From NCBI GenBank assembly GCA_012976225.1, contig JAAVVG010000012.1, positions 744,001 through 808,000 of the forward strand: DNA of 64,000 bases. The letters are read 5' to 3'. Positions 4,286-41,700 of the stretch are shown in pieces. Numbering within the stretch: position 1 is the first letter of the stretch; every line of letters starts with the position of its first letter. Below the pieces are notes generated by a model, which saw nothing but the letters and a program-made list of their open reading frames with translations, did not search any database and was not told where the DNA came from. A program made the position numbers and the translations under genes. Source of the DNA: Golubevia sp. BC0850 (Eukaryota > Basidiomycota > Exobasidiomycetes > Golubeviales > Golubeviaceae).

Positions 4286-5054
4286 ATGAGATCTTTTTCG
4301 ACTTTTTCTTCTCTTCTCCTTTCTCATTTCTTCAACTCCAAATTCAAACCAATCAAAGATCTCGTTATGAACAGCAACAACTTCTTCTCTTCACCAGACT
4401 TATTGCTTTGGATCTTCAACTTCTTACCTTTTGATTGTATCAAGTCACTCGGTCAAGTCAACAAAGTTTTGAATTCCCTTTACAAGAACATGATCAATCG
4501 AGCCAATATTGGAATTTTCGCAACTTATATTTGGTTCAACCACATCAAGACCTTCCAACGTGTCAATCAAGCCTTAAGAGCCATGACTCTCTCCAAACCT
4601 CTATCGGAAGTCATGCTCCGCTCAGATATCTCTACATCAAAGCTTAAGGAGATTAGAGTGGAGTCAAATTGAGTAAAGAAAGTTATGAGGTAGATCGCAA
4701 AGGTCACATGATTAGAATTCTGCATTCAGGCATTCATCCTTTCTTTGGAGCAATCAGTTACTCTTTAGGTGAGCCTTAAGAAGACGTTTAGATCATGACT
4801 AAAACCACTTTCAATACTATGAAACCTGAGAAGACTCATGGATTAGATTTATATAAAGCAGCTTAGATAATGCAACTGAACCTGCTGTTTCTTCACTGCC
4901 CGTCGAACTCAAAGACCCAAAGCAACACTTTGTCATGTTGGACAGTAGAAGAACAGTCAAGGTAGTCGGAACCGATAGATCACTTTCTGAATCTGATGAG
5001 AAAATTCTCGTTGTCACTGTCGAAGATATCAGGAAAGCTTTCTGTAAAGATTAA
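4286..5054 (+). CDS. Possible small F-box-like gene, first junction unresolved
   Basis: The frame opening at 4286 (an alternative ATG lies near 4369) encodes an F-box-like stretch around LLLWIFNFLPFDCIKSLGQV, matching the usual pattern of a helix, IF..LP and a VNKxL helix. A later coding segment ending at donor 4769 joins in frame across a clean 98-base intron (4769-4866) to the exon 4867-5054. That exon encodes a charged C-terminus (segments KDPKQHFVMLDSRRTVKVV and ILVVTVEDIRKAFCKD) and a TAA. The junction between the F-box part and the middle segment could not be settled: the first frame hits a stop at 4670-4672, and the only in-phase intron I found would be about 40 bases. It is either a short real gene or a decayed F-box gene. 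Confidence 0.4.
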
Positions 5055-5877
5055 GCGAAAGTCAAATGTGAGTGAAGGAAAGATCCGTTTCTCGTTGCTT
5101 CATCTGTTCCCTTCCACTGGTTTAGTTCTGCTGGGATCTGATCTATTTCATTTCTGCTACCTTCTCTTCATACGCTTCTTTCCTATCCGCGAAAACTCGT
5201 TGATACACTTCAGACGAAGGAGATCACGTCCACTTCGAAGGATTCACTTCTCTTGAGAAACCTCCAAAAGGTTTTAGACTTGGACAAGTCAGTTGGGGTA
5301 TTTGATGGTCAAAATTGTGAAGGGATAAGATATTCACTCAGATGAGCTTCATCGTCATTTGAGTCTAGGTCCTGTTCAAAGGATTGGGAAGATGGTTTTG
5401 TTGTATTTTAGGTGCCTGTAAAGACTTATTTTCCCATGTTGCGAGCTCTTTCGATTGTCTTTGCGTTCTTAACTTTGTCGACACCCTGTCTAACAGCACT
5501 GCAGCTCGCTTTCCGATTCTTTCACATGTTCACAAAGCGAATAAAAAAAAGACAACAACATGTAGAAGAGGACTTGTATAGATCATAACATAGGGAACGG
5601 AAAGAGAGACACACACGACTGCTGAAACGTGAAGATGAAGGGAAAAGCTATCAGGGAACACGTTAATAAGGTTTGCGTCATTCGTTCATTTGAAATTCTC
5701 GACATGATTGGGAAAAAAAAGAAGGGAGAGGGAGAGAAGGTTACCAGATTCTTAGAAGTAGAAGGGAGCGAGAGAGAAGGACGAAGAGATTCGAGGTTGC
5801 GAAGCTGCAGAGGAACCTTTAGACTGATTAACCAGTCGAGAAAAAGACTTCCGGGATGTTTCTAATCAACTGCTGTT
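5055..5877. other. Gene-poor spacer
   Basis: I see no supportable gene. Open frames here are short and purine-rich. The right end is presumably the 3' untranslated region of the leftward GNAT-Mss4 gene. Confidence 0.4.
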
Positions 5878-8800
5878 TTAATTTTTCAAAAACCTATATC
5901 TGACTCTGTCAGCAGCGACCAACAATTCCTGTTGACCAACAGCTCTATCTCTATTCCCACCTGCATTGTTAACACCATCGATTTCTCTAGAGACTTGATC
6001 TGCTAAACCACCATTGGCCTGACTTTTATGTAAAAATGTGAAACCAAGTGGACCACAATCACATTCACCACAAGTGATGAATTTTACGATGAGAGGATCT
6101 CTATCAGATTTAGGAAGACTTAAAGTTGGAGGTTCATTATAAACCTTTTCATCTTCAATTGTAGGTTCTTTCTCTTTACTAGAAGGAGAACTTTCAGATT
6201 CAGAACTAGATAAAAAGTTACCAGTGAAACTTCTTTCTCTAACTCTTTCTCTCCAAGTACCTTTTCTGGTAGGTTTCTCTCTTTTAGGTTTCCCATCTAA
6301 ATCTTTTTCTTTCTCATTCCCACTTGAAGGATTTGAGATTGATTCTTGATTGTTAGGTAAATCTCCAGCTCCACCATTTTCAACACTAGTAGCATCTTTA
6401 ACCCAAGGGGGAATCCATTCTTGATCTTTTGAAAACCCAACATTTTCAAAACTCATTGGAGAATTGACTGACCAAAAACCTCTAAGTGGACCAGCACCAC
6501 TTAAATCCTGAGTAGAAATGTTAGCTCTAGGTGCTTTGTCAATTGAACTTGCTGCAGGAACTGGATTTGATAATGGTCCTGAAGGTGGTTTTGGATATTT
6601 CTTTTCTGGCAAACTTAGTTTTGGATCTAGCAGAGGACCCGCTTCACATAAGGTCCAATTTGAGGAACCTTTTTTCAAAAGGATAGAACCGCAATCTTCC
6701 ATAGGACAATAAAGTTCTGCTAAATTCGTTCCTAACTTTTGATTGACTAATCTTGCTTCTAGAGCTGCGAAAGAATCCTCAGCTGGAGTTTTAGCTGCTA
6801 AAGTTGCACCTAAAACTTGAGTATAAGGTTGAGATGGATTCGCAGCTCCTGAATTTTTTCGATTGGATAGAGAAGTAGATCTTAAAGCAGCTAAAATCGA
6901 TTCTTGATTGATTCCAGCTGGGAAGCCTGAATTGTTAGGATTTGAATTCTTGTTGGGTGAAGAAGTTGAACTTGGTAAACCCGAATTTAAAGCAATTGGA
7001 GAAGTCATCATCTCATTATCACCTTTTAAAATCTGATGATCAGAAACATTACCATCACTTTCATTTCCACTTCCTTTATTCTTAGTTTCCAACAACAAAG
7101 AACTAGCTTTCCTTTTCTCTTCTCTTTCTTTTTCTCTTTCCTTTTTACTTTCCTCCATTCTCAACTTATCATCTTCTCTATCTTTCCTTCTAGATTCTTC
7201 CAAACTTTCCAATCTCAATTTTTCCTCGTCTTTGTCTTTCTCGATGATATCTTTTCTCATCTCTAACCAACCACCACTACCATATTGAATATGACTATGA
7301 CCTAAAATCCTAAAACCGTTTTTCAAATAAAGGCCGGTTAATTCTTCATGTGCTAAAAGTGCGAAAGCTTCATATCCTCTTGCGATGTCAGTCTTTGATT
7401 TCTCTTTATTTCGATTGGAAAGCAAACTTGTGATTGGATTTCCACTATTACTATTCATCGAACTTAGGTTCTGAGAACTTGAATTTGAAGATCCAGGAGT
7501 CCCAGTTCCACTAGAAGACTTTGGTCTATCTCCACCACCACCTCTACCACTTTCCTCAGCATTTTTGATTCTTCTGTGAAATTCCTTGAGAAGAGTACTT
7601 GCGATTCCTCGATGTCTCCATTCCTTAGAGACCACCACTGAATGAATACAAACCAATGGAGTGCCTTCTTCAGCGGAATGAACTGACATGGATCTTAAGG
7701 TTAAAGCTGGAGATGCAGTTGCACAGATGAAACCAATCAGCTTCCTAGGAGCACTCGAGAAGGCTGAAACTGTTAATGGACCTGCAACTTTGGTTGGCGC
7801 TTGAGCTAGATAGGCTCCTAGGAATAGATGAGGCGCGTTGGTTTGTCGATATCTGAGGAGATGGCAGAATGAAAAAGAGGAGCGAGAATGGGTTTGAAGG
7901 AGAGAAGGGAAAAAAGAGAGGGATTGACATGAGGGACCACTCATTCGCTGCGTGGGATTTGGCTCTTCCTCCTGCTTCGCTATCACCAAGCTTGTCTATT
8001 CAATGGAAGGAATGACTCAGATCACTCTGAAAGGTGATCACATCGATTCTTTGACTGCACCTTGAGACGAGCGAACATCACCCAATTCATCTCCATGAGG
8101 TATACTCTCTTCTCGACTCTTGGCCACCCTACACAAAGCTCCTCATCGAGCTAAACAGAGACCACCAGCTCAACTCGACTTGGCTCTCGTCGCCCAGTCC
8201 CCTCCTATCTTTGCCGGGCATCATCACATCAGCGGCCACGTTTGCCTTTCCACTCACTTCAACTTCTCAAAGCTAGCAGCGTCTTCAGGAGGATAGCTAT
8301 TCCTCTCAATGACATAAGCCGCATTAATCTCATTAGCTCTTACGAGATCGAAAGTCATTCCAGGAGGTAATTTGCTTCCTCTGCTAGTACTGGTGAGGGT
8401 AGCGTTTGAGGTAGGAGGAGAAGGAGATTCCAAGGGCAGAGTGGAATTTGAAGAGTTACTAGTCTGAACAACCATGTTCGAAGATTGATTTCCGTTTAAA
8501 GAAGAAATGGAATTACTTAAATCTGGAGTGGTCGAACCTGAATTTGGATTGAGACGTTGTTCGGCAGGAGTGATTGAAGCTGATACCTTCTCCTTTTCCT
8601 TCTCCTTTCCTTTTGATGAAGATTTGGTTGTCGCAGAATTGGTTGCTGATCTTTGACTTTTATCTCTTTTAATATGATGACCTGGTTGAGGAGGTAAAGC
8701 GTCTGGATCGTTTGGATTATAAGTTGAGCCGTTGTTAGTGTTAGTTCTACTCAAATTTGGAGAAGTTGAAGGTGAAACTTCTGTTGAATAAGTTGAATTT

Positions 8801-8976
8801 GAATCCTTCACTGAAGTTAAACTTGTTAAATGATTATTCTTTAATAAACTTTGTGAAACTGATGGAGTTCTTGGTCGAGGATTGGAAGAAGAATGAGAAG
8901 ATGAAGATGAAGAAGGTGGGTTACCTTGCCGACTCAACGTCCTAGCTGGAGGTGGGAAGAATGCTAGTGGATTCAT
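5878..8976 (-). CDS. Arylalkylamine N-acetyltransferase (GNAT) fused to an Mss4/Dss4-like domain
   Basis: Two exons (8976-8258 and 7852-5878), joined across a 405-base intron with clean GTGAGT and CAG sites, give 897 residues in frame. The splice restores the AANAT family signature: ERNSYPPEDAASFEKLK in exon 1, then YRQTNAPHLFLGAYL in exon 2. Acetyl-CoA loop RHRGIA is at about 319-324 and the conserved Tyr of YLKNGF at about 415. The fold is split by a Ser/Asn-rich insert at about 339-395. A charged coiled-coil-like stretch (about 438-494) leads to an Mss4-type module: CPMEDC at about 622-627, CGECDCGPLGF at about 834-844 and LLVAADRVRY near the end, giving the expected four zinc-ligand cysteines. 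GNATs of this group acetylate arylalkylamines or polyamines; Mss4/Dss4 proteins bind nucleotide-free Rab GTPases. An upstream non-coding exon is likely, with an acceptor just 5' of the start and a donor near 9155. Confidence 0.88.
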
Positions 8977-9911
8977 CGACTCTGGTAGATTGAACTGCAA
9001 TTAGAATAGACGTTTCTATAGAAGGAAACTGGGAATGGGGATGAAAATGGGGCACCAAGAGGAAGAGAGTCAATTGAGTCTCTTGATAAGACTTCGGCAA
9101 CAAAGCCGAACAAACAAGGATTCTACTTCCCGAATCAGTTCCCTTCTTACTCACCTTGAATTTGTAGGATGGGATGGGATGGAATGGAAAGATAGCGAGA
9201 GAAGATGAGAAGCGAAGAGAAACAGAGAAAGAGAGAGAAATGGTTCTTGTGGGGGAAGAACTTTTTGATAAGGCATGGGTTCGTTCTAGACCACCTTGGC
9301 AGAATTGAATTGAACAGATGACTTGATTCTCAAAATGACATATTTCCAACCATCGGGGGAACTATCTCCTTCGGACTTCTCAATGGAAAGAATATGAGTA
9401 TGGAATAAATATGGGTATGGAAAGAATATGAGTACAAATTTGGGTGAGTAGAAAGAGAGAGAGAGAGAGGATTGATCTGTCCCGCTGTCCCATCGACGGG
9501 AGGGAGTCCAAAAAAGGGGAATGTTCTTTCTCTCAATCTATGCACTGGGACTTTTAGCTAGTCAGTTTTCTACAGTTCTTGGAAACTCAGAGGTAGCCCT
9601 ACAGACCTTGACAGACGGCAGACGGGCGACCTAGCGAGCAGCTGATGTCGACGTGAGCGAGATGCTTTTCCTTCCGGACGTTAGAGAGAATTTCAGACCA
9701 TCTCTTTTCCTTGGAATCAACAGAAGAAATTGAAAAGGAGTGAAGCTTTGAGAATTTATGGAGTAAGAGAAGAAGGGGAAGTGAAAGTGAACAGGTCCAA
9801 GAGAGCAAATTCCAGGAGTGAGGTATGAAAGTTCGAAACAAGGTAAAAGCAACCTACCAAACGTGAGCAAGAGCTCGACGTCTTGAGTGGTAGAAGCGTA
9901 TAAAATGAAAG
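8977..9911. other. Leader of the GNAT-Mss4 gene and intergenic spacer
   Basis: The part nearest the GNAT gene probably holds a 5'-untranslated exon ending near 9156, with the intron ending just before 9000. The rest includes a short GA-rich run near 9450-9470 and lies downstream of the first FAS1 gene. I see no separate gene. Confidence 0.45.
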
Positions 9912-11469
9912 CTAGAATAGAAGAGTAACGCCGCCCATCAAGCCAATCAAAGCAACAGCAGATCTCAAAACCAAAGCACTTGAAGAATTATCTGCTCCAG
10001 CAGTACCATCACTTTCGATTCCATTGTTCCCACCACTGTTACCATCGACTCCTGCGGAAGTTCCGGTAGCCTGAGCAGCTACCGAAGCTGCAGATTCAGC
10101 AGTTTCAGGATCGGCGGTGGTAGTCTGAAGAGAGAGAGGTGAGAGAAAGAAGTTAGTGGCAAGGTTCAAGAGATCAAAGAGTGAGAAACTTCGAAGAGAC
10201 TTACTAGAAGAGCTCTATCGATGACATGTACGACACCTCCTTTGTAGGGATGATCTGACGATATGATTCTAGCCGAGTAATCTCCAGAGGTGATGAATAG
10301 ACCGGTGTCGTTTACCATGAAGGTTAGTTCGTTTCCGGAGGCTGAGATTGCGCTCATGATCCTGCCAGCACTGTTAAATTTGGGAAAAAGAAAGTTAGAG
10401 GGAGAAAGAGAGGAGCTTTTTTAGTTCGAAGATAAAAAGAAGGGGCGGGAGTAACGTGTCGATGTTGGAAGAACACCTTGCCTTCGTTCTCCACTTACTT
10501 ATCTGGATCGCCAACTTCATCATCTGGAAGTTGAGTAGTATAAACTACTTGATTCATAAGAACATGATTTTGAAGAAGATTCTTCTGCTCATCACTTGAA
10601 ATTCCAACAAAAGTTCCCAGAATCATTTCAAAAGCAGCATTTTCTGGAGCGAAGATGGTTAAACCGTTTTCAGTTTGATTCAAAGGATTGATCAAATCAG
10701 TCTGATTAAGAACGAAAGCTAGTTGAGTTAAGTTTAATTGATCGATTGTCGTAGTCAAAGGTCCTGGAACTTTCAAGACTTGAGTGATTGGTTGAATTCG
10801 AAGGTTCTCATAAAGAGGTCCGTCTTCTTTAGAGACGAAAGATACATTTCTACCTGCTTCTTGGATGTAAAAAGTATCATTTCTTTCGAATTCTTTGATT
10901 ACTACTACTTGAGATCGATCGCCTGGGAGGGTGACTTCTGAGCCTGAGAGAAGAGTCGAACGAACTACTAGATCGTCAAATTCTGAATCTGGATCATGCT
11001 GGTTTGCTGGCTTGTTGTCATCGTTTTGAGCTAGAGTTGAGTTGATGATGTGATAACGAATTGCGTTTAGGAGATCATCTCCAGTCGGGGCGTTGTTCCG
11101 AAGAGCTGAGAAGGCCTCGTCAGTTGGGGCGAGAACTAGTGATGTAGAGAGCGTTTGAAAAGATGGAAATAGCGAAAAGCAAATGGTCAGCCCACTGGTC
11201 CTAGATGATGAGAGAGAATGAGACAAATGCCCAAGGATCGTCCAGGTTCAGGGATGGGTGGCAAAAAGAGGCTCCCCTAAGGACTCACCAGTCTTGTTCC
11301 CGTTTTGAAGCTCTGATACCAATGAAGTGCTGTTTCCAACAGCGTTGGCCAATTGATTTAGACCTGCAGTGCGCAGAGCAGCGAGAAGTCCGTCGGCGTA
11401 AGAGTTGTCTTGACCGAGAACTGAGGTGGCAACCGTCAAAGAGAGAAGAAGAGAGGCGAGAAAGTTCAT
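9912..11469 (-). CDS. Secreted GPI-type fasciclin (FAS1) protein, copy A
   Basis: Four exons (11469-11289, 11135-10499, 10370-10205, 10124-9912) total 1197 bases, or 398 residues. A signal peptide (MNFLASLLLSLTVATSVLGQ) is followed by two FAS1 repeats. The first has VLAPTDEAFSAL and the RYHIINS motif. The second has LTIFAPENAAFEM and ends in the typical GVVHVIDRALL. A Ser/Gly/Asn-rich stalk and a hydrophobic tail (ALVLRSAVALIGLMGGVTLL) suggest GPI anchoring. Several N-glycosylation sequons are visible. FAS1 proteins act in cell adhesion at the cell surface. All introns fall at the same codons as in the neighbouring copy B, so the pair arose by tandem duplication. A TATAAAAG box lies about 54 bases before the ATG. 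Confidence 0.92.
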
Positions 11470-16642: not shown

Positions 16643-16874
16643 CTCTAGCTGCTGAAATCGTTGAAAGTGTCAGAAGAGAGAGAGAGGAAGAAGTCGAGAG
16701 TCGAGACTTTGGACTGAGTTTAAAAAACCTTGGTCTTCTCGACTTCTCCCAACTGAACTATTCTGAACGTATTTCCCCACCTTTCCCCTTCTCTTCTTCC
16801 TTTTCTTCATCTTCCAATCGTCCATCTATCAAGCTAATTAAAGGTTAACTCTTCAACTCAATCAATCTGCAGAC
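16643..16874. promoter_or_regulatory. Divergent promoter between coiled-coil and GRAM-protein genes
   Basis: Only 232 bases separate the two divergent start codons. The spacer is pyrimidine-rich on the plus strand just before the rightward start. It presumably drives both genes. Confidence 0.5.
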
Positions 16875-19800
16875 ATGGATGGTCCTCGATCTCCAGCCTC
16901 ACCTCCACCAGAAAGACCAAAGAGAGGACTGGGACGGGTCGACTCAGACACCCCTGCCGCTATAGCTGCTTGGGAGCAGGAGATAGTAGAGAGAGCTCAT
17001 AGAGACTTTCAAGAAAGACGATCAAGGCAAGGATCAAGTGGTGGAGTAAGCAACAGCAGTAACGCCAGCATCTCATGGGCAGACAGACCTTCTCCTTCTC
17101 CAAGATCCCCTACCTCCCCAGGTTCAGTCTCCAGAAGAGGTTACATACAAGATCCCGTAACTTCAAATGCTTCAATTCTAAATTGTAATGTCTCTCCAAG
17201 ATCTGGTACATCTGAAAGCGTGAAGCCAAGGAGAAGTGAGAGTATAAATTCAATCGGACAGGCAAGTATAGCTTCTTCTCCTCGTTCTCCTGGAGCGTCA
17301 TCTGGTTTCATCGATTATTCTGGAAAAAGGAGGAGCTCTCTTATCATAGATGGTTCAGGTGGAAGCGGGAGCGTGGGCGGTGGCGTAGCCGGTGCTGCGA
17401 GCTTTATAGAGGAACCTGCTACTATCTCCCTTTCCCCTTCCTCATCTTCATCGACGAAGCCATCTTTCTTGGAAGAATATGGATTGGAACTAGAAGGATC
17501 TTCCCCTGCCAGTAGCAGCAATCGTGGTGCCTCTCGCTTCAAAGGATTTAGGAAGGACAGCAGCAGATCTGGAGCTCTCTCTCCTCCAATTCCTTCTCCG
17601 CTCTCTCCAAATGCTTCCACTCTTAGCATTTCTAACCCGATTCAATTAAGCTCTAAAGCTCCTCTTCCACCCACTCCGGACAATCCAATTCAAGCAGCTC
17701 GTGGATTGAGCACAGACATTCCTTTTCATCCATCTCAAGTCCCTTCAACTCCACCAACTGTTCCTCCTCGCCCTAGATTGGATTCGGATGCAAGTTTCTA
17801 TCCTTCTGAAAAAATGTCCAATTCCAGAGGCAGTAGAGTCTTCTCGAACGATGCTAAAAGTCAAGATTCTCACTGTTATTCTACCCACGCAACCTCTTCA
17901 ATTTCGAATTTAGCGGAAGAAAGCCTTTCATCTCATTCTTCAAGTGAAGCGAAAGTCAGAGGAGCAGCTCTTTCAGTGCCTCAAACAGAGGTGGATATGG
18001 TCAGATCAGCTTTAGCTAGAAGTGCAAGTGGAAGTCAAGAGTTCGATTATTCAGATCTGGTAGCAACAAGTGAATCGGATCATACGAGAGAAAGTCAACC
18101 TTCTAGTTCTTCAAATCTTCCTCCAACTTTGTCTCCTAGAAGTTTTCCCCCAGTGTCTTCAACCTCTTCAGCCACCTCTTCTCCAAACCTAGATCGTGGA
18201 GTCTCGACTGGAGTCGAACCTTCTCAAGGTCCACCTGCCCTTCCGAGACGACCAAATGGAGCTTCAACTTCGAGCGCAAGTCTCAATAATTCTATTCTAT
18301 CTTCTCCTCAAGTGGAAACGAAAGCGGAGAAGAAGGCTCGAGAGGCTTCGGAAAAGATCGATGCTAAGCAAGAAAAGACTAGGTTAAAAGAGGAAGCTGC
18401 TTCAGAGAAACAGAGGGCTAAAGATGAGGCTGCTAGGGTGAAAGAAGAAATTATAATCAAGAAGAAGAACGAACAGGATGAGGCGAAAAAAGAAAAAGAG
18501 AGGGCGAAGTGGAGGAAGGAGAAGAAGAAGAACGAAGAGATCGAGAGGAGCATCTTGGAAGCTAGCGTGGAGGAGTTAGAGATTGCTCAATTCCTCAACA
18601 ACTTTGGGAAGGTGAGTAGGTAGAGACTTCAAAGCCTGCCAATTCGAAGATCTCAAATTGAACTGTTCTGACCAGTCTCTCCTGCGATCTTGCCCATCAC
18701 CTCCCCTTCCTCCAGCACGTCCACGAAGTGAAAGCCGTCGCCCCTTTGGACCCAGATGAAGCCGTAGAAGTCGAATGGCCGAGTCGAGCTGATTGGATGA
18801 GCGGCGGAGGAGGCTTCCTTGCCAACGTAGGCTACTCAGCAGCTGTCTTGACAGCATTAGCTTGCTACCTATCTCCTAGAGGCCCAACTCAAATCACGCT
18901 TCCAGAAGCCAAAACTGCCAGCAGGACCGGAGTTGAAATTCAAGACGAAGATAACGACGATCCCGAATTCAGTCTCGATGCCTTGAAATCTAACGGAGAA
19001 AGGCTTTACCTGACTGCTCTACCGATGTACGAAGGTTTCTTTGGGTCTCTGAATTCTCTCGGTCGATGGGAGAGGCCAATTACGACTCTGATCTCCTTTC
19101 TCATCTACTCTGTCTTGTGGTGGAATGGACTTCTCCTTCCAGGATTCTTTGCAACTCTGATCTTCTACACTCTCAAGCTCAAAGCCTCTCCTCCAAAACC
19201 TGATGCTCTACGCAAGATTATGGCACTTCGCCAGAAGAGGAACGACGAACTAGCGAACTTTGCTGCTGGACTGCAAGACGATTCCGGAAAGGAGATGATG
19301 AAAGAAGCCGAGCACGAGAAGGCTGCTCCGAATTCAGAGTCGGCTCCATCTGAAGCTGAAGCGGAAGTCGAGCCTTTAACTCCAACCTCTGTCAAGCCCG
19401 AGATCCTAAAGAAGGACAAGATCAAGAAGCAAGCAAAGAAGTCCTCCAAGTATGGCCTAGCCGCTGACGCTACTCGGAAATATGGAACAGTTGCAACATT
19501 CCACACTTCGAATCTGGCAGACGTGCATGAGAGGATCAAGAACTTCTTCTTATGGAAATCGCCAGCTGCGACAACAAGAGCAGTCTGCTGGCTATCCATC
19601 CTCATGGCAGCAACCCTTCTGCTCTCTCCGAGAATTCTGATTCGTATCCCAGGTCTGGCTCTAGGAATCTCCTTCTTCTTCGTTCTACCGATCGCTCAAC
19701 GTAAGCCGCACTGGCTACCCGTCATGGCCAATCCGATCGAGTTGTTACTGGCTGGAATTCCAAACGATGCTCAAGTGGCTATTCAGTTGATGAGGAAGAG

Positions 19801-20663
19801 AGCCCTTCTCGGCAAGCCCTTGATCGGAGACCAAAGGTTGCTGGTCAATCCTCAATTCTTGAAGTCTAACGAAATGGCTTTCAAGACTATCGAAGGAGAA
19901 GAGGCTACCAACGAAGAGATCGACATCATGCTATCCGGTGCAAATGGAAATGGAGGTGCAACTGGAAGCAACGGGAAGGTTGATTGGAACAAATGGAGGA
20001 ACAAAATTGAACAAGGTCGAAACTTCGCTATCAAGGGAAGCGAGATCATCTCTGGTCAAAGAGGAATTACTCTTCCACGAATCTCAAATGATCAATCATC
20101 TTCATCTGGACAGCAAGGACTTTCCACTTTTTTGACAAACAGTGTCAATTACGGTTTGGGATACGCTGAGAATCAGCAGGTGAAGAGATTGGGAGGCTCG
20201 AATCCTGGAAGATTGGAAGAGAAGGATCTAATTCAAGCCGATGGAATCTACTGGGCGATTTACAATTCTACCTCTGGTCATCTGGTGGTCAGCGCGGATA
20301 GGATCATCTTCAGATCTACTTTCGCCAAGAAACTGGAGGATGGGAAAGACGGAACGGAAGACAAGAATGGGGGTCAAAAGGTCAGAGACCTCTTCGAGAT
20401 TTCTCTAGATTCGATCTCTAATCTCAGGAAAACTAAGAGTGTCAATCTAGTTGTGTGGAGTACTGATGGTTTGAACATTCAAATCAAGAAGGGAGAGGTG
20501 AGTCAAGGTAGTGAATGGGAGATTCGATCGCTGATCGTCGCTGGAGAATCTGACACCCCCTTTTCCCTTCAATCAGACCCTCGTGCTCTCAAACATGCTT
20601 AAGCGAGACGAAGCTTTCAACAGAATCTTGGCTCTCAGTCCATTCCATTGGTCGAAAGTGTAG
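16875..20663 (+). CDS. Membrane protein with long disordered N-terminus and C-terminal GRAM-like domain
   Basis: Three exons (16875-18611, 18716-20497, 20577-20663), all joined in phase 0, give 1201 residues. The first 480 residues are Ser/Pro-rich and disordered, followed by a charged helix (about 480-575). The second exon starts with HVHEVKAVAPLDPDEAVEVE and has two hydrophobic hairpins: around ITTLISFLIYSVLWW near residue 705, and around AVCWLSILMAATLLL plus the following segment near 870-900. The C-terminus (GHLVVSADRIIFRS, then FEISLDSISNLRK, then the rest in exons 2-3) looks like a GRAM/PH fold, a lipid-binding module of membrane-contact proteins. The layout resembles the fungal DUF3292-type family, an assignment from memory. 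Likely an ER or vacuole membrane protein. Confidence 0.85.
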
Positions 20664-21516: not shown

Positions 21517-24500
21517 TCAGCCGACGAGACCACCTAGACCTTCTGCTGCTACGACACCTAAAGTATCATCCTGCGAGAGAAAAAGGGGAATGAAGAGGAG
21601 AAAAGAAAGACGGCGAGAAGAATGAGAACAGATTACGAAAAGAGTTGAATCGGAGCATTCAGAGTCAATATTTCATTGTATCAACTGTTCCGATGGATGC
21701 TTGAACAAGCTGCAGGAAAAAACTCACCTCATCTTTAGCATCGTCATTGTCGTCCTCTTCGTCCTCAGTGAAGTCTCCCACTTGGTCCTCTTCGGAAGTC
21801 GTACCGAGCGAAAGGGTCGAGGGAGGAGACGAGAAGGTGCTGAGTTTTGAATTGTTGTCTTCCGTAGTTGGAGTTGTAGTCGAAGAGATTCCAGTTCCAG
21901 TCCCCATCGAATAGCTTGAGAGGGAAGTTGGAGTAACGTTGTTGTGAAGGTGGTTGTGCATCGAAGTTGGAACCAAATCTGAGGTTGAATTTGAGTTTGA
22001 ACCAGAGCCCGAGACAGCACTAGAAGAAGAAGAAGGAGGCAGGTGAACACTCGGACTGAAGTGATTATTGATTCGAAGGTTTAAGGTAGGATTGGAAGAG
22101 TGACTTGAACTTGTGTAGCTCGACTCTACGTTTGAGGAGGAGTTCTGACTTCGGTACTGATTTTGAGGGTTTTGGTGGAGTATCGTTGAAGTTGAGGGAT
22201 GATTCAGTTGGTGATTTCCACTATCAGCTTGCAAGTGATCCTCCTTTCCGATTCCAACCTTCTGGTTCTCCAAGACGTATTCTTCCCAGCCCCATTTTTT
22301 CCTAACCCTTCTGCCCTCAAAGTCGACTTCCAAAACTTGACTGAACATCAAAGTGTTTCTAATCAATTCGAAATCATTAGTCAGCTTCTTGACTCTGTTG
22401 AAGGTTGAAACCACCGAGATCATGACCCAGCCTTGAGAATCCATACAGCTTCGCAAGTAAAAGTCTCCTTCCAGATTCCTAGCTGAGAAGTAAAACTCGA
22501 TTTGAACGAGAAGCTGATGGCTTGGGGAAGAAGGTGAAACTGGCTGTTGGACTTGGTTTGGAATTTGATCTGGTTGAAAGGTGGACATCGAAGCCTGAGG
22601 TTGAGATTGCGAGTGGAGATCTGGACGGTGTTGTTGAGGATAAGGTTGAGGTTGCTGGAATTTATCACCGGCTCCAATCGAGCTACGAGCCCTATTTTCT
22701 TCAGTACAAGAGTGCTGAAATCGGTCTTGACCTCGATTTTGATTCTGCTCCAACTGATCACCCTTCCAATGTCCTCTCTGGAAGTTCTTGGGTTTGAACT
22801 CGTAGGTGTTCCTTTCGTTACCTCCGCTTCTAAAGCTGTGTCGTTCTCTGTCTCCTTGAGGATGAGTCTGGTATCTAGAACCACTGGAATCTCTGTCTCT
22901 GCCAACTCTAGACGATGGTCCAGTCGGAGCAAATCTCATAGATGGATTGTTCAACCCGAAGGATCCTTCAGATAGATGAGGAATTAGTGGGAGTTGAGAG
23001 TTCATGTTCATGTTCATGTTCAGATGAGCTGGAACTGAATAGTAAGGATCAACACACTGAGGATGTTGGGGTGGAGGAGATTGAATTTGTTCGAAAGGTG
23101 TCGTTGGGGAAGAGAAATTAGAAGAGAATTGGTCCTGATTTTGAATGTTGAAATATCCGTGTTGCTCGAAGAAAGCTGGATTTGGAGCTTGATTGAAAGT
23201 TGGATTCAAATGTGGATTGAGGTAAGCCGGCCAGGGAGGAGGGTAGTAAACCTTTTCTTCTTCACCTCCTTCGGTCGCCTCTTCCTTCTCTCGTTCGATG
23301 ACTTGACCTGGAACTTCCACTTGACCCTCAGGGATCGAATTTGATCCAACGTGAGAACGTTGCTTCCGGAGCCTGAGGTCTTCAACCAATTTCCTCATCT
23401 GATCTAAGCCAGCGCTGGTTTCTACTTCTTCTTCCAGTCCTCCAGCTGAAAATCCTGGATGTCTCGTTGTTGAAGTTGACGCTCCCTTTCCAGCAGAGTC
23501 GATAGCAGAAGTCTCTCCTCCCTTTCTATTCCTTGCCTCCCAATGATCATGATCACTTGATGCTTCCATCTTGTTCCTTCTGTTCCTGCGCGAAGAAAGA
23601 CCAGTTGAACTTGTATGAGTACCACTGCTACTACTCGTCGTGTTGCTGGTAGTTCCTGAACTGTGAGTAACGTCTGGAACGATAGAAATCCAAATTTTAC
23701 CATTCTTCGTCTTGACTTTCTCATTCTTGTTACCTAGGATTTTGAGATCTAGACCAGCTAATTCAGAATAATTGGTAGCAGTGGAAGGAATGGCTTGAGG
23801 AGTAGGATCCCCACTTCTTTCTGAAACCGTTGTTGAGAGATCTGAAATTGATGCTATTGGCTGAAGAGCTGAAGAGGAAGAAGTAGAGGATGAGAAAGAA
23901 GCCCTCGAGCCTGCGTTTGGCACTTGATTTGAAGATAAAGCTTGGGTCGGGCTTAGAGATGAAGTTGGGTTTGATTCATCTTTGTTCTTTCCTTTGCAAT
24001 TAGAGGAACTGATACTGAGACTTCGATGGGAAGAAGAAGGTGCAGGCCAAAGAGTGGAATAAGCTTCAGTCTCCTTTCCATTTACGACTGGTAAGGTAGG
24101 AATAGTTTCTTCTTCTAGAGTAATCCCTTTAGATTGGAATGGAGGGACTGAACTTGCAGTTCGATTCCTTCCTCTAACCTGACTGGTTGCGTTTCCACTT
24201 GCAGAATTAGAAGAAGTCGAATTGTTAGAGTTTGAATGGTTGGAATTTGAGTTGTTAGAATTAGGATTACCTCCGCTCTTTGACTTTCTGCGACTTCTTG
24301 GAGCTCCAGCTTTTCGACCTCTACTTGCACTAACATTTCCAATGCTACCTGAAGAAACATCAGTTGGATCAGACCTCCTTTCTTCCCTTTCAAGAGAACT
24401 GTCACCTAGACTAAGCTCAGTTCCAGTTGAGGTTCCAGTTGAGACTTTTCGGTTCGTTTGACTAATATTTGAGGCTTTGGTTTCTGCTTTATAATCCGCT

Positions 24501-25399
24501 GACAAATCTCTTAAAGAATCGATCCCTTGATCGGCAGAAGTTGGATCTGAAGACTGAGGTTGATTGATTAATGGTTTGTTTGATGAAGAGGAGGAGGAAG
24601 CTTTTCTCTGTCTTGGAGGTTGAGTTTGAGTTTGAGGCTTAGAAGTGACAATTGAAGAAAGATCAGATATCCCAAAATTTAATTGAGCGACTTCAGAAGA
24701 AATGGAGGGAGTTGAAAGAGAAGTTGAAGTGTTGGAGGTGGCAACTTGTGCAGTCGCTCTCTGATTTCTACCAGCGATATCAGCCCAACTCTTGCTCCCC
24801 TTTTGATTCTTCCCACCAGTTGATGAAGGTTCCTTCATTTCCTTCTTCACTTTGTCATCCCCATTTCCAGTAGCAGCTGCGTCCCTCTCTTTCCCTTTAT
24901 TTATATCCTTTCCCTCTGCGGTCTCTTTCTCACCTTTGCTCCTCCCGTCTCCAAGTCCGCCTCTCTCCTCAGCAATTTCGTCTTTAGACTTTCCAGCATT
25001 TGAAGCTGATGGTTTCGAAGTAGGAGTCTCTTTAGGAACAGAGATCTCAACCTCCTTCTTCATCCTGCTTCTCTCCGCCCAAGGATTCTCCTTTGGAATT
25101 TGAGCCTTAGGTAAAGTTGTTTGCTTTTTCCCGTCTTGAGATTTCTGATTGTTTGATACTGATTGAGGTTCTTTAATTGAAGTTGAAGTGGATATATGCG
25201 TGTTGATTGTTGATTGAGTCGAAGAGGAGGAGAGTGTAGGAACCATAGAGGTAGAAGAGGAAGTGAGATTCTCTCTCCCTTCCGCTTTGACCTTGACTTC
25301 CTTCGTTGAAATTGAAGTTGAGCCGTTTGCTTTCCTTAGTCTTTCAGCATAAGATAAAGAAGAAGAAGAAGAAGAAGATTTCCGACTTGATTGAGACAT
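21517..25399 (-). CDS. La-motif protein of the LARP1/Sro9 type
   Basis: Exon 1 (25399-21728) and a short last exon (21570-21517) join across a 157-base intron in phase 0 to give 1241 residues, ending DDTLGVVAAEGLGGLVG. The La motif sits at about residues 965-1040 (LLVQIEFYFSARNLEGDFYL, GWVMISVVSTFNRVKKL, LIRNTLMFSQVLEVD), a winged helix that binds RNA. No classical RRM follows, as in Sro9/Slf1 and LARP1-type proteins, which associate with polysomes and mRNA 3' ends. The rest is a Ser/Asn/Gln-rich disordered region with an N-terminal WADIAG-type segment common in such proteins. The short terminal exon is easy to miss, because the first exon reads on into a false stop. Confidence 0.9.
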
Positions 25400-26180
25400 T
25401 CTCTGATTTGCTGATTAGGATTGCTATGAGTCCTACTCTTCTATAACCGTTTCTATTGAACCCCGCTCCTCTTTTTCAACGAATCTAGACCTAACAGAAG
25501 TCAGTTCAATCAAACTGAATCCCCCAAGAAAAAGTTTGGAAGAAAGGAAGGAAAGGGTTGATGAGTCTCTAACTGTCTATCACTCCGGAAAGTCAATCCT
25601 GACCAAGCCAACTTGACGCCTGACCAATCTGAAGGGACTCATTAGCTAAAGCTTAAATCCAATGATCAGATGACCTCGACAGCTTTGACCCTTCTCCGTG
25701 CTCCCATGTCGATCTAAATCCCGTCCTGGATCTCAACTCACCGATCTTTCTCAACTTGCTTCTCTTACGAGACTCCCTCTGAATCTTCTCTCTTTCGTCT
25801 AATCACTTGACCCAATTGATGCTCTAGTTGCTAACTATCTAAGAGAATGGAATGGAGCTTGAGAGAGGGTGAAGAATGAATGAGTGGTTCGATGGACAGG
25901 TGAAGGAGACACCGACTGTACGTTCTCTTTAATCTTTCAACGTTCAACTCTAGTCATTGTTGCGACTGATCGTTACTACAGTCAAAGTCAGTGGGAAAGC
26001 AAGGTAATTGGATTCGGTTTTATCAATGTGAAGAGAAATATGAACGGGTCAAAAAGTACATGTTTTGGGTGAAGGAGAAAAGGGGATACGCATACAATCA
26101 ATGGAAGTCTCAGAATCTACACTCCAGCCTCTCGTTTCATTCTTTCTTGATCCTATGGTTCAAGTTCTAAGCTGCGTCGT
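25400..26180. other. Intergenic region between LARP and KIN17 genes
   Basis: Promoter side of the LARP gene and 3' side of the KIN17 gene. No convincing gene is visible on either strand. Confidence 0.5.
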
Positions 26181-38722: not shown

Positions 38723-41700
38723 TCATTTGATTGGATGAGCTCCTCCTACGACACGTCCTCTGACGAAAACAGTATGAATGTTACGATCATCGGCACCGAA
38801 TAGGAACTTCTCAAAGACCTCTTCGAGTGTGTCTGTTGAACAGAAAGGGGAGAAAGGTGAAAAAGGAAACGAGTCAACATAAGTATCGCTGATCGAATTT
38901 GCTCGACCTGAGAGAGAAAGACTGACCTTCATTTTCGATGTACATTCCAGGATTACCCGTGTAACCTCTTGGACCCCAGACACTGGTAGTCGAGACTAGC
39001 AGAGCATCGAATTCCTTCCCTTTCTCAAGACTTCCAACTCTAGAAGCCAAGGAACAGACTTCAGCTCCTCCCAAAGTCGCTAGCCAAAAGAGAGTAGCGA
39101 TGCTCAAAGGACCTTGAGTGAAATCGTGTTGAGTCTCTCTTTCATAATCGTATTGACCATGAGAGGTGAGAAGTCCATTCGATCCGTTCCCAACTTTCTT
39201 TTCCTTTCCAGACATGAAGGATCCGCCGACTGCTTCTTGAGGGTATCGACCATCGATAACCTTAGCATCGTCTTGTACGACATCCGGTTGAGGATCCTTC
39301 AAAGCGTTTGGGACTTTGACCTCGATTCCATTTCCATTTCTGTTTCCGCCAGATAAGTCAGGGAAATTGAGGACTTTGGCAACCACGGAGGCTTCTCTGA
39401 TAGCACTCAACATCGACAGTCCGAATCCTCCAGAGACGTCTGTTCCTAAACCAACTTTGATACCTCTGTTCAACATCTCTCCGACTCTTGAGGTTCCAGA
39501 CCTCAAGTTGAAATTGGAGGTAGGACAGTGAGAGACTCCACACTTTCTCTTTCTGATCAGATCCATTTCGTCTGAAGAAAGATGAATGGCGTGAGCGAGC
39601 ACTGTTCTAGGGCCAAGAAGATTGAAGTGTTCGTAGACTTGAGAATAAGAGGCGGCGAAAGGGAAGAGTCTCTTGACCTCATTGATCTCTCCCACTGATT
39701 CCGAGAGATGGGTTTGAATTCGTACTGAGTCGAGAGAGAATGAATAATGGAAGTGGCAGTGAGTAGTAGAACGTGTACGCCAATCTTCAGCCAGAATGGT
39801 TACTCACGACTTGGATCTCTGCTCAACAAGGCAGAAATGCTAGCTAGCATAGCATCGGTACAGCTGATAGCGAACCTTGGAGTCAGGATGGGCTGAACCA
39901 ATTGACTCTCGTGATCTCTGTAGGTACTCCTACTCTTCTGTCTTTGAGCAGCAGAAGAGACAGAAGTAGCATTACTACTTGCACTGGTATGACTAGATCC
40001 AGAAGCACTTGAAGAGATACTCGAGCTAGAACTGGTTCTATGAGCATGCCTTAGACCAGAGGAGGATGGTGTCGGTAAAGCAACAGTCTTGCCCGAAGGA
40101 GATCCAGCCGGAGATCCGAAACTTGAAGCGCTACCACCACTCATCGGATTTTTCTTCTCTTGCGAAGGTGAAGCGTTGGGAGAAGATCCAGCTGAAAGCC
40201 TACCAGAAATAGAACTTTCTTTGTAACCTTTCTTCGTATTCTCCGATCCAGACATCATCTCCTCGACTGTCTTGCTAAGTCTGGCGATGCTGGCATCCAT
40301 TTCAGGACTTCCAGAAGTAGATCCGAAGCTGCCGGAATGAGAATGAAGGTGACTAGAGTTTGAACAACCTTCCTTTTCTCCAGTTCCGACCGAAGCAGAA
40401 GTAGGACCTAGACTTGGACTTGCACTTCCAGAATGTTGATAGCAACTGCCGAAAGGCTTCATCCTTCTGATGTAGATGATGAGCTCCTTGGTGTGCTCCA
40501 TAGAGATCGAGGCGTTCTTCTCTATGTAATCGATGGGAGAATTTCGATCCATCGAGCATCGTCCGATGAAAGCTCGCTGACCTCTCTCGTTACAGATGTC
40601 TGCTAAGATCTTTGAAGCCTCCAAGTGAAGAGTAGCGTAGTAGCAGGCGGTAGTCGTACCACTGTCGATCATCCTCTGAACTACACTAGAGTAGGTTCGA
40701 TGCGCATAGTTGACGTCTTCGAATTTCCTCTCTCTTGGGAAAGTGACGTTCTTCAACCAGTCCAGAAGCTCGTACTGCTGACCTAGACCTAGGGGTGAGA
40801 TTAGAAGAGATGTAGGTCAGAAAGAGAGAGTGAGCAAGCGCAAATCATTCAACAAGAACAAAAGAGAAGGTCAGCATCTCTCTTGGCTGAGTAATTGATT
40901 CTCTTTAACCTCAGCTGCCAGACTAGTTTCAGCAGTCTCTAGATATTATTCGTTCATACTCACCGATATTGGGTACTTGACATGCATGCTATCGAAGGGA
41001 CAGAAGAAGAGAAGAAAGAAGGAGGTTAGCGCTCTGCATAGATAAGAGATTTCTGGGTCCCAGCGTTCTTTTCAACATTAGCTAGTAAGACCAATCGAAC
41101 AAAAGTACTTTGAAACAGATAAAAAGCAGTTATTGCTGATTCTCAGAGGAGATATCGAGGCTACTCCGAGGACGCCACATGGGAGGGCATGAGGCCTTCT
41201 GACCTCTACTTACTCGGATGGGTCTACCCTGAAGTACCTCTCCATTTCCTCTGCACGAGTCTTGAATCTGAACGCGATCATTTAACAGAGCTCTGAATGC
41301 AGTCTGGAGATGTCGTGTGTTGAAGCGATCCCTTATCTCAGACATTTTTTCCTACCCATGAAAAAACTGGAAAGCTCCCTTTTGAACTCACTGTATGCGT
41401 ATCAATGAAACCAGGACAGAGGAAACTTCCTTTCTCCAATCTGACAACCTTCACATCTGCCATTTTCCAACCACATCTCGATACGATTCTTTGAATGGCA
41501 ATCGCTTCTTTTCGTGACTCGAGGGTGGGAGATTGAGGCCTCTCTTGATCACTTTCAGTCCTCGCCCTTGAGAGAGGTGTTGTAGATGATGAGGATGAGG
41601 ATTGCTCAGTAGAAGAAGTAGAAGATGACTGGTTGTCTTGTTGTAGTGGCATGACAGAAGGAGGCATGTCCAGTTTTGGTGGATCTTCAGCAGTTGGACT

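Follow-up and report, generated by a model that had tools for sequence, protein, structure and literature searches.

A predicted single-chain fusion of an arylalkylamine-type acetyltransferase and an Mss4/Dss4 module in the basidiomycete Golubevia sp. BC0850

Amine-type acetyltransferases and Mss4 proteins are normally known as separate proteins. The Mss4 family, which includes Mss4/RABIF in mammals and Dss4 in yeast, is recognizable by a conserved block of the form W-x-V...FENVGF-S/T-KD...VKF(L/I)xCxxCxxGP-[IL]-G, and its members with solved structures are short chains of 115-123 residues. In mammalian MSS4 the first cysteine pair has the spacing CXXC, and the hexamer FENVGF is what we take to be the Rab-binding turn; the reference list of PMC6767298 includes a title on a helical turn motif. 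Regarding their function, passages of PMC6767298 describe MSS4/DSS4 chiefly as chaperones for Rabs in the nucleotide-free state, their exchange activity being low, whereas the parts of PMC7604616 dealing with RABIF keep an exchange role for this protein at the cell edge, and also report its binding to RAB13 during translation. Among fungi, Monilinia has an MSS4-like protein, and the Mss4 passages of PMC5987419 mention no acetyltransferase fusion.

The arylalkylamine N-acetyltransferases (AANATs) have homologs in both basidiomycetes and ascomycetes and, according to sections of PMC2897805, the non-vertebrate members, fungal ones included, are devoid of characteristic vertebrate features such as the histidine pair. 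The substrates for which AANATs are known are small amines (passages of PMC2897805 and PMC10220653); for the yeast enzyme Paa1 the main in vivo substrate is given as spermine, and the in vivo substrates of AANAT-type enzymes in yeast are treated as uncertain in the portion of PMC10220653 devoted to them.

In this work, we analyzed a window of 64,000 nucleotides from Golubevia sp. BC0850 (contig JAAVVG010000012.1, positions 744,001 to 808,000), within which a gene on the minus strand is predicted to encode, in one chain, a GNAT domain of AANAT type followed by a charged helix, a low-complexity linker and an Mss4/Dss4 module; all coordinates given below are those of the window. We favor, with a probability of roughly 0.7, the reading that this gene specifies one bifunctional chain, that is, a Rab chaperone or weak exchange factor bearing an amine acetyltransferase, with the two domains working independently of each other. 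No GNAT-Mss4 fusion appeared among the matches listed in the open-licence literature (titles, abstracts and term counts), which is weak evidence of absence. Both domains belong to known families, and their combination, not seen in those literature matches, may sit in fungal domain databases.

Structure and coding potential of the fusion gene

On the minus strand, the fusion gene starts with an ATG at 8976 and ends with a stop codon at 5878-5880, and these ends coincide exactly with the limits 5878-8976 proposed in the preliminary description. Our gene model, read from the sequence itself, is composed of two exons and gives a spliced product of 897 residues. Exon 1 (8258-8976, minus strand), identified from the spliced translation, encodes a Ser/Asn/Pro-rich low-complexity N-terminus (aa ~1-203) followed by the start of the GNAT domain (aa ~204-239), and displays no Pfam match when taken alone. 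It is followed by a predicted intron of 405 nt (7853-8257, minus strand; GTGAGT...CTCCTCAG, phase 2), placed from the splice sites in the sequence, which interrupts the GNAT domain in its N-terminal portion; no CTRAY branch site was found near its acceptor, and its sole CTRAY sits near the donor. Exon 2 (5878-7852 including the stop, minus strand) encodes the rest of the GNAT domain, the charged helix, the linker and the Mss4 module. The previous claim that one frame encodes both domains thus stands from the GNAT core to the Mss4 module (705 codons), but not for the N-terminal GNAT part, which lies in exon 1.

Directly upstream of the ATG at 8976, a possible 5' UTR intron was read by eye at 8995-9154 of the minus strand, with a GTGAGT donor at 9154 and a TTGCAG acceptor ending at 8995; after such 5' splicing, a short upstream frame starting from an ATG at 9276 would stop at a TGA that overlaps with the main ATG.

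The stop-free frame that contains the GNAT core and the Mss4 module extends from 7995 to 5881 of the minus strand and has 705 codons, compared with a longest frame of 220 codons (mean 124) in 300 dinucleotide shuffles of the region 5000-10000, read in six frames. Furthermore, codon usage was trained on the window's nine other frames of at least 300 codons, 4,551 codons in total. With it, the sense frame scored positive in all 13 non-overlapping 180-nt segments, namely the three of exon 1 and the ten of exon 2, which cover these exons except for the final 179 nt of exon 1 and the final 174 nt of exon 2. In the other five frames, 62 of the 65 scores were negative and three were positive (1.3, 4.6 and 10.8). 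The linker region codes like the remainder of the gene, exon 2 holds no GTRNGY donor, and there are no N letters in the window. The long open frame and the coding scores, together with the lack of such a donor and of N letters, make a split into two genes unlikely. An alternative is that the locus holds two genes or reflects an assembly or gene-model error, with two transcripts read from the one open frame, or with an internal start giving Mss4 alone; Met codons within the linker would allow a shorter isoform. However, besides the 705 codons without a stop and the coding-positive segments, a separate first gene would be left without a stop codon of its own in the shared frame, and we consider this alternative very improbable. 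We regard the GNAT-Mss4 fusion at 5878-8976 as confirmed at the level of the predicted gene.

Other frames of the window were recorded alongside. Upstream of the fusion gene and on the same strand, a frame with a Fasciclin domain is found at 10498-11247 (PF02469, 60.8 bits), and a 1,249-codon LARP-like frame at 21668-25414 (minus strand) carries its La domain (PF05383, aa 970-1022) towards the C-terminus. At 38877-40816 (minus strand), two adjoining frames each show a partial amidohydrolase match (PF01979; best stretches at positions 21-107 in the upstream frame and 149-274 in the downstream one), and they are probably exons of one gene. On the plus strand, a 593-codon frame at 16842-18620 with no Pfam match at E 0.001 adjoins a DUF3292 frame at 18662-20599.

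The acetyltransferase domain, the charged helix and the linker

The exon 2 part of the GNAT domain (aa 241-443; 7243-7851, minus strand), assigned from Pfam, from bacterial relatives and, via profiles, from AANAT structures, includes the motifs IHSVVV (aa 309), RHRGIA (aa 319) and LYLKNGF (aa 414). The domain holds two loop inserts of ~59 aa and ~19 aa, the larger being a Gly/Ser/Asn-rich stretch (aa ~339-397; 7381-7557, minus strand) that stays unmatched between the aligned pieces aa 212-338 and 398-440. With exon 2 as query, PF00583 (Acetyltransf_1) gave 20.7 bits, exactly its cut-off of 20.7, and PF13508 (Acetyltransf_7) gave 23.1 bits, below its cut-off of 27; in the spliced 897-aa protein every GNAT model fell under its cut-off (PF00583, 20.3 vs 20.7; PF13508, 22.3 vs 27). 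The GNAT segment alone passed both (PF13508, 27.2; PF00583, 23.4), and cutting the low-complexity loops by hand gave 32.4 and 24.7 bits for PF13508 and PF00583, respectively. The NCBIfam models returned, for the GNAT core and for three bacterial relatives, only GNAT matches below cut-off, and when the window protein itself was searched against the PDB, no AANAT chain was listed up to E 10.

A tblastn search of 72,556 plasmid records with the loop-cut GNAT core yielded five matches, three from Pantoea, one from Variovorax and one from Treponema, all annotated as GNAT, in which 88-96% of the core was aligned, including the exon 1 part, at ~25% identity. Four of these five were taken into a profile and an alignment, the latter displaying 19 invariant columns; the invariant I20, E21, A30 and A31 fall in the exon 1 part, and R39, P44 and F47 lie directly past the junction. 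When run against the spliced protein, the four-relative profile scored 44.0 bits (E 1.6e-12), compared with 32.9 bits for exon 2 alone, a gain upon joining of the exons that supports the intron. In the PDB, the same profile, built without the window protein, had as its five best matches, over the full length, vertebrate serotonin/arylalkylamine N-acetyltransferases (best E 4.6e-12), and adding the window protein raised the AANAT score from 49 to 60 bits (E 2.2e-15), the vertebrate serotonin N-acetyltransferase chains 1CJW and 1B6B being the best PDB matches of these family profiles. The five-sequence profile also matched protein N-terminal acetyltransferases, more weakly than AANAT. As an observation on the bacterial side, these GNATs from Pantoea, Variovorax and Treponema plasmids, annotated merely as GNAT, belong to a profile whose best solved structure is a vertebrate AANAT.

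The acetyl-CoA-binding motif A of GNAT proteins has the form R/Q-x-x-G-x-G/A. It is present in the predicted protein as RHRGIA (aa 319), which aligns with Q-G-K/R-G-Y-A and R-H-R-G-F-A of the bacterial relatives; similarly, the Tyr of LYLKNGF aligns, through the profile, with FYQRFGF of 1CJW. The paired histidines of vertebrate AANAT are missing, as the protein has CIH where 1CJW has HLH, whose histidines are presumably the catalytic ones of the vertebrate enzyme. AANATs appear as the closest sequence relatives of this domain among GNATs, a relation reached through bacterial intermediates only, and the predicted acetyltransferase groups with the non-vertebrate AANATs. It resembles these in its full-length match to bacterial GNATs whose profile leads to AANAT in the PDB, and differs from non-vertebrate AANATs and Paa1 in its loop inserts, as well as in the charged helix and the Mss4 module that come after it.

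Behind the GNAT domain, a highly charged (E/K/R) single helix is predicted at aa ~434-499 (7075-7272, minus strand; model residues 194-259), where the 10-residue blocks of model residues 201-260 had pLDDT values of 65-93, with no other block exceeding 50. It is followed by a Ser/Asn-rich linker (aa ~500-615; 6727-7074, minus strand) with positive coding score, low model confidence and no Pfam match. The single-sequence models had a mean pLDDT of 47.4 for the piece with GNAT and helix and of 39.3 for the Mss4 piece, values too low to confirm either fold.

The Mss4/Dss4 module and its occurrence in the assembly

The C-terminal module (aa ~616-897; 5881-6726, minus strand) was assigned to Mss4/Dss4 from PF04421 and from MSS4 chains in the PDB. 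Against a cut-off of 22.6, PF04421 scored 31.2 bits in exon 2, 30.1 in the spliced protein and 34.5 in the segment, the match falling in two stretches because of inserts; when these were cut by hand the score rose to 47.5 bits and the best PDB matches were MSS4 chains at E 6e-9. The uncut module again had MSS4 chains on top, at E of only 0.1-0.7. As reckoned from alignments with MSS4 chains, the region ahead of FENVGF is ~30 residues longer than in MSS4 and the region behind it ~109 residues longer (net). The preliminary description was therefore right as to both families, namely an AANAT-type GNAT, as indicated by the profiles of bacterial relatives, and Mss4/Dss4.

The module shares with MSS4 the conserved block mentioned above. 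Its FENVGF motif (aa 708-713; 6433-6450, minus strand) is identical to the hexamer of MSS4 chains, and CGEC (aa 834-837; 6061-6072, minus strand), the second of its zinc cysteine pairs, followed by DCGPLG, aligns with CADCEIGPIG of MSS4. Unlike the free-standing MSS4 chains, the module ends a chain of 897 aa, contains inserts and has as candidate first zinc pair CPMEDC (aa 622-627; 6691-6708, minus strand), found from the sequence, whose spacing is CX4C. The second Cys of CPMEDC aligns with 'qrCGS' of MSS4, in a weak alignment in which this piece alone scores below zero. Considering the CX4C spacing and this weak alignment, we only infer full zinc binding by the module, nor is it assured that the Rab site works, since the inserts split the module. 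The large inserts and the unusual first pair could likewise reflect a degenerate module that has lost Rab binding; yet FENVGF, the second CxxC and GPLG are kept, and no replacement Mss4 was found in the assembly, so that such a loss seems to us quite unlikely.

In the 25.8-Mb assembly, a PF04421 search with E up to 10 matched this gene only, in two pieces reaching 34.1 bits together; the same search at the default E limit matched nothing, not even the fusion gene, and is uninformative. Likewise, the Mss4 module and its own loop-cut core gave, as protein queries, no match in the assembly beyond the fusion gene, and the pattern F-[DE]-N-[VIM]-G-F had one site, within the fusion gene, compared with three for the reversed control. 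The fusion gene is thus the sole Mss4 found in the assembly, where a Dss4 broken by unlucky introns or lying in a gap could still be hidden from these searches. The question of whether the genome has a separate Dss4, already raised before this analysis, is answered by none found with the three approaches, which renders the fusion more meaningful. As the sole Mss4 match in the assembly, this fusion probably serves the organism as its functional Dss4. Its earlier designation as an exchange factor is doubtful where the main function is meant, given the chaperone view in passages of PMC6767298, while the exchange role kept in parts of PMC7604616 leaves room for it.

For the acetyltransferase, the protein's own GNAT domain as query recovered its own two exons plus three weak others (E 0.015, 0.40 and 0.78), the next-best site (E 0.015) having 31% identity; with this query, the assembly thus yielded no further close relative of AANAT type. 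With the four-relative profile, three other GNAT loci scored 13.9, 16.1 and 16.7 bits vs 44.0, in a comparison that took in 8 of the 15 GNAT sites of the assembly, one of these 15 being the fusion gene. A bacterial relative used as query matched nothing in the assembly, the fusion gene included, and this search is no test of AANAT paralogs. Regarding possible Rab partners, 56 exon-level PF00071 matches correspond to Ras-superfamily GTPases, not sorted into Rabs. Finally, no relatives of the exon 2 protein were found among 61 plus 11 pattern stretches in prokaryotic plus viral contig collections, which say nothing on other fungi.

These findings also bear on the notion that two housekeeping proteins were joined in an ancestor, harmlessly, giving a link without gain. 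Such an incidental fusion would fit the long low-complexity linker without a domain, and each half resembles an ordinary member of its own family; against it stands the presence of what are apparently the sole Dss4 and the sole close AANAT of the assembly in one gene, though this is compatible with an incidental join as well. This possibility, which we hold tentatively and as somewhat unlikely, overlaps with the bifunctional chain of independent domains that we favor, the sole difference being whether the join brings a benefit.

Proposed function and meaning of the fusion

If the chain is bifunctional as we propose, its Mss4 module, held by zinc, would bind nucleotide-free exocytic Rabs of the Sec4/Ypt1 type through the FENVGF turn and the CxxC region, stabilizing the bound Rabs and aiding nucleotide release, and the chain would act as the Dss4 of the organism. 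The GNAT domain would acetylate small amines, such as polyamines and arylalkylamines, from acetyl-CoA, as yeast Paa1 does. The helix and the flexible linker would keep the two domains apart, each acting alone, and the fusion would set the ratio of the domains in one chain and carry the acetyltransferase to sites of Rab handling.

Domains in one fused protein often serve one process. The fusion therefore hints at a link between Rabs and acetyl-CoA/polyamine metabolism, and an apparent sole Dss4 bearing an amine acetyltransferase is a hint that Rab supply is tied to that metabolism. Any coupling between the acetyltransferase and Rab jobs is something that we infer. The preliminary description likewise suggested a tie of acetylation to Rab-dependent secretion, or a common place of both domains on vesicles, which we treat as conjecture. 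Under a functional coupling, Mss4 would bring the acetyltransferase to Rabs, possibly nascent ones, so that the Rab or a partner becomes acetylated, or acetyl-CoA would tune Rab stability. The presence of both domains in one chain, together with the finding of a sole Mss4 in the assembly, speaks for this reading, as do the weaker matches of the profile to protein N-terminal acetyltransferases and the binding of RABIF to nascent RAB13 described in part of PMC7604616. However, the nearest solved relatives of the GNAT domain are AANATs, known for small amines, and a disordered-looking linker equally suits independent domains; we thus judge the coupling unlikely. In the same manner, it is improbable, although conceivable, that the sole Dss4 of the organism, and perhaps of its lineage, is functionally wired so that acetyl-CoA or amine status acts on Rab supply, or that Rabs are acetylated during their chaperoning.

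Were the two parts merely joined by accident, the gene would be a modest curiosity. If the functional link is true, the fusion would connect acetyl-CoA/polyamine metabolism directly with polarised secretion. As a natural fusion, it gives a handle on two debates, namely which substrates the AANAT-type enzymes of yeast use, and whether Mss4 proteins are exchange factors or chaperones.
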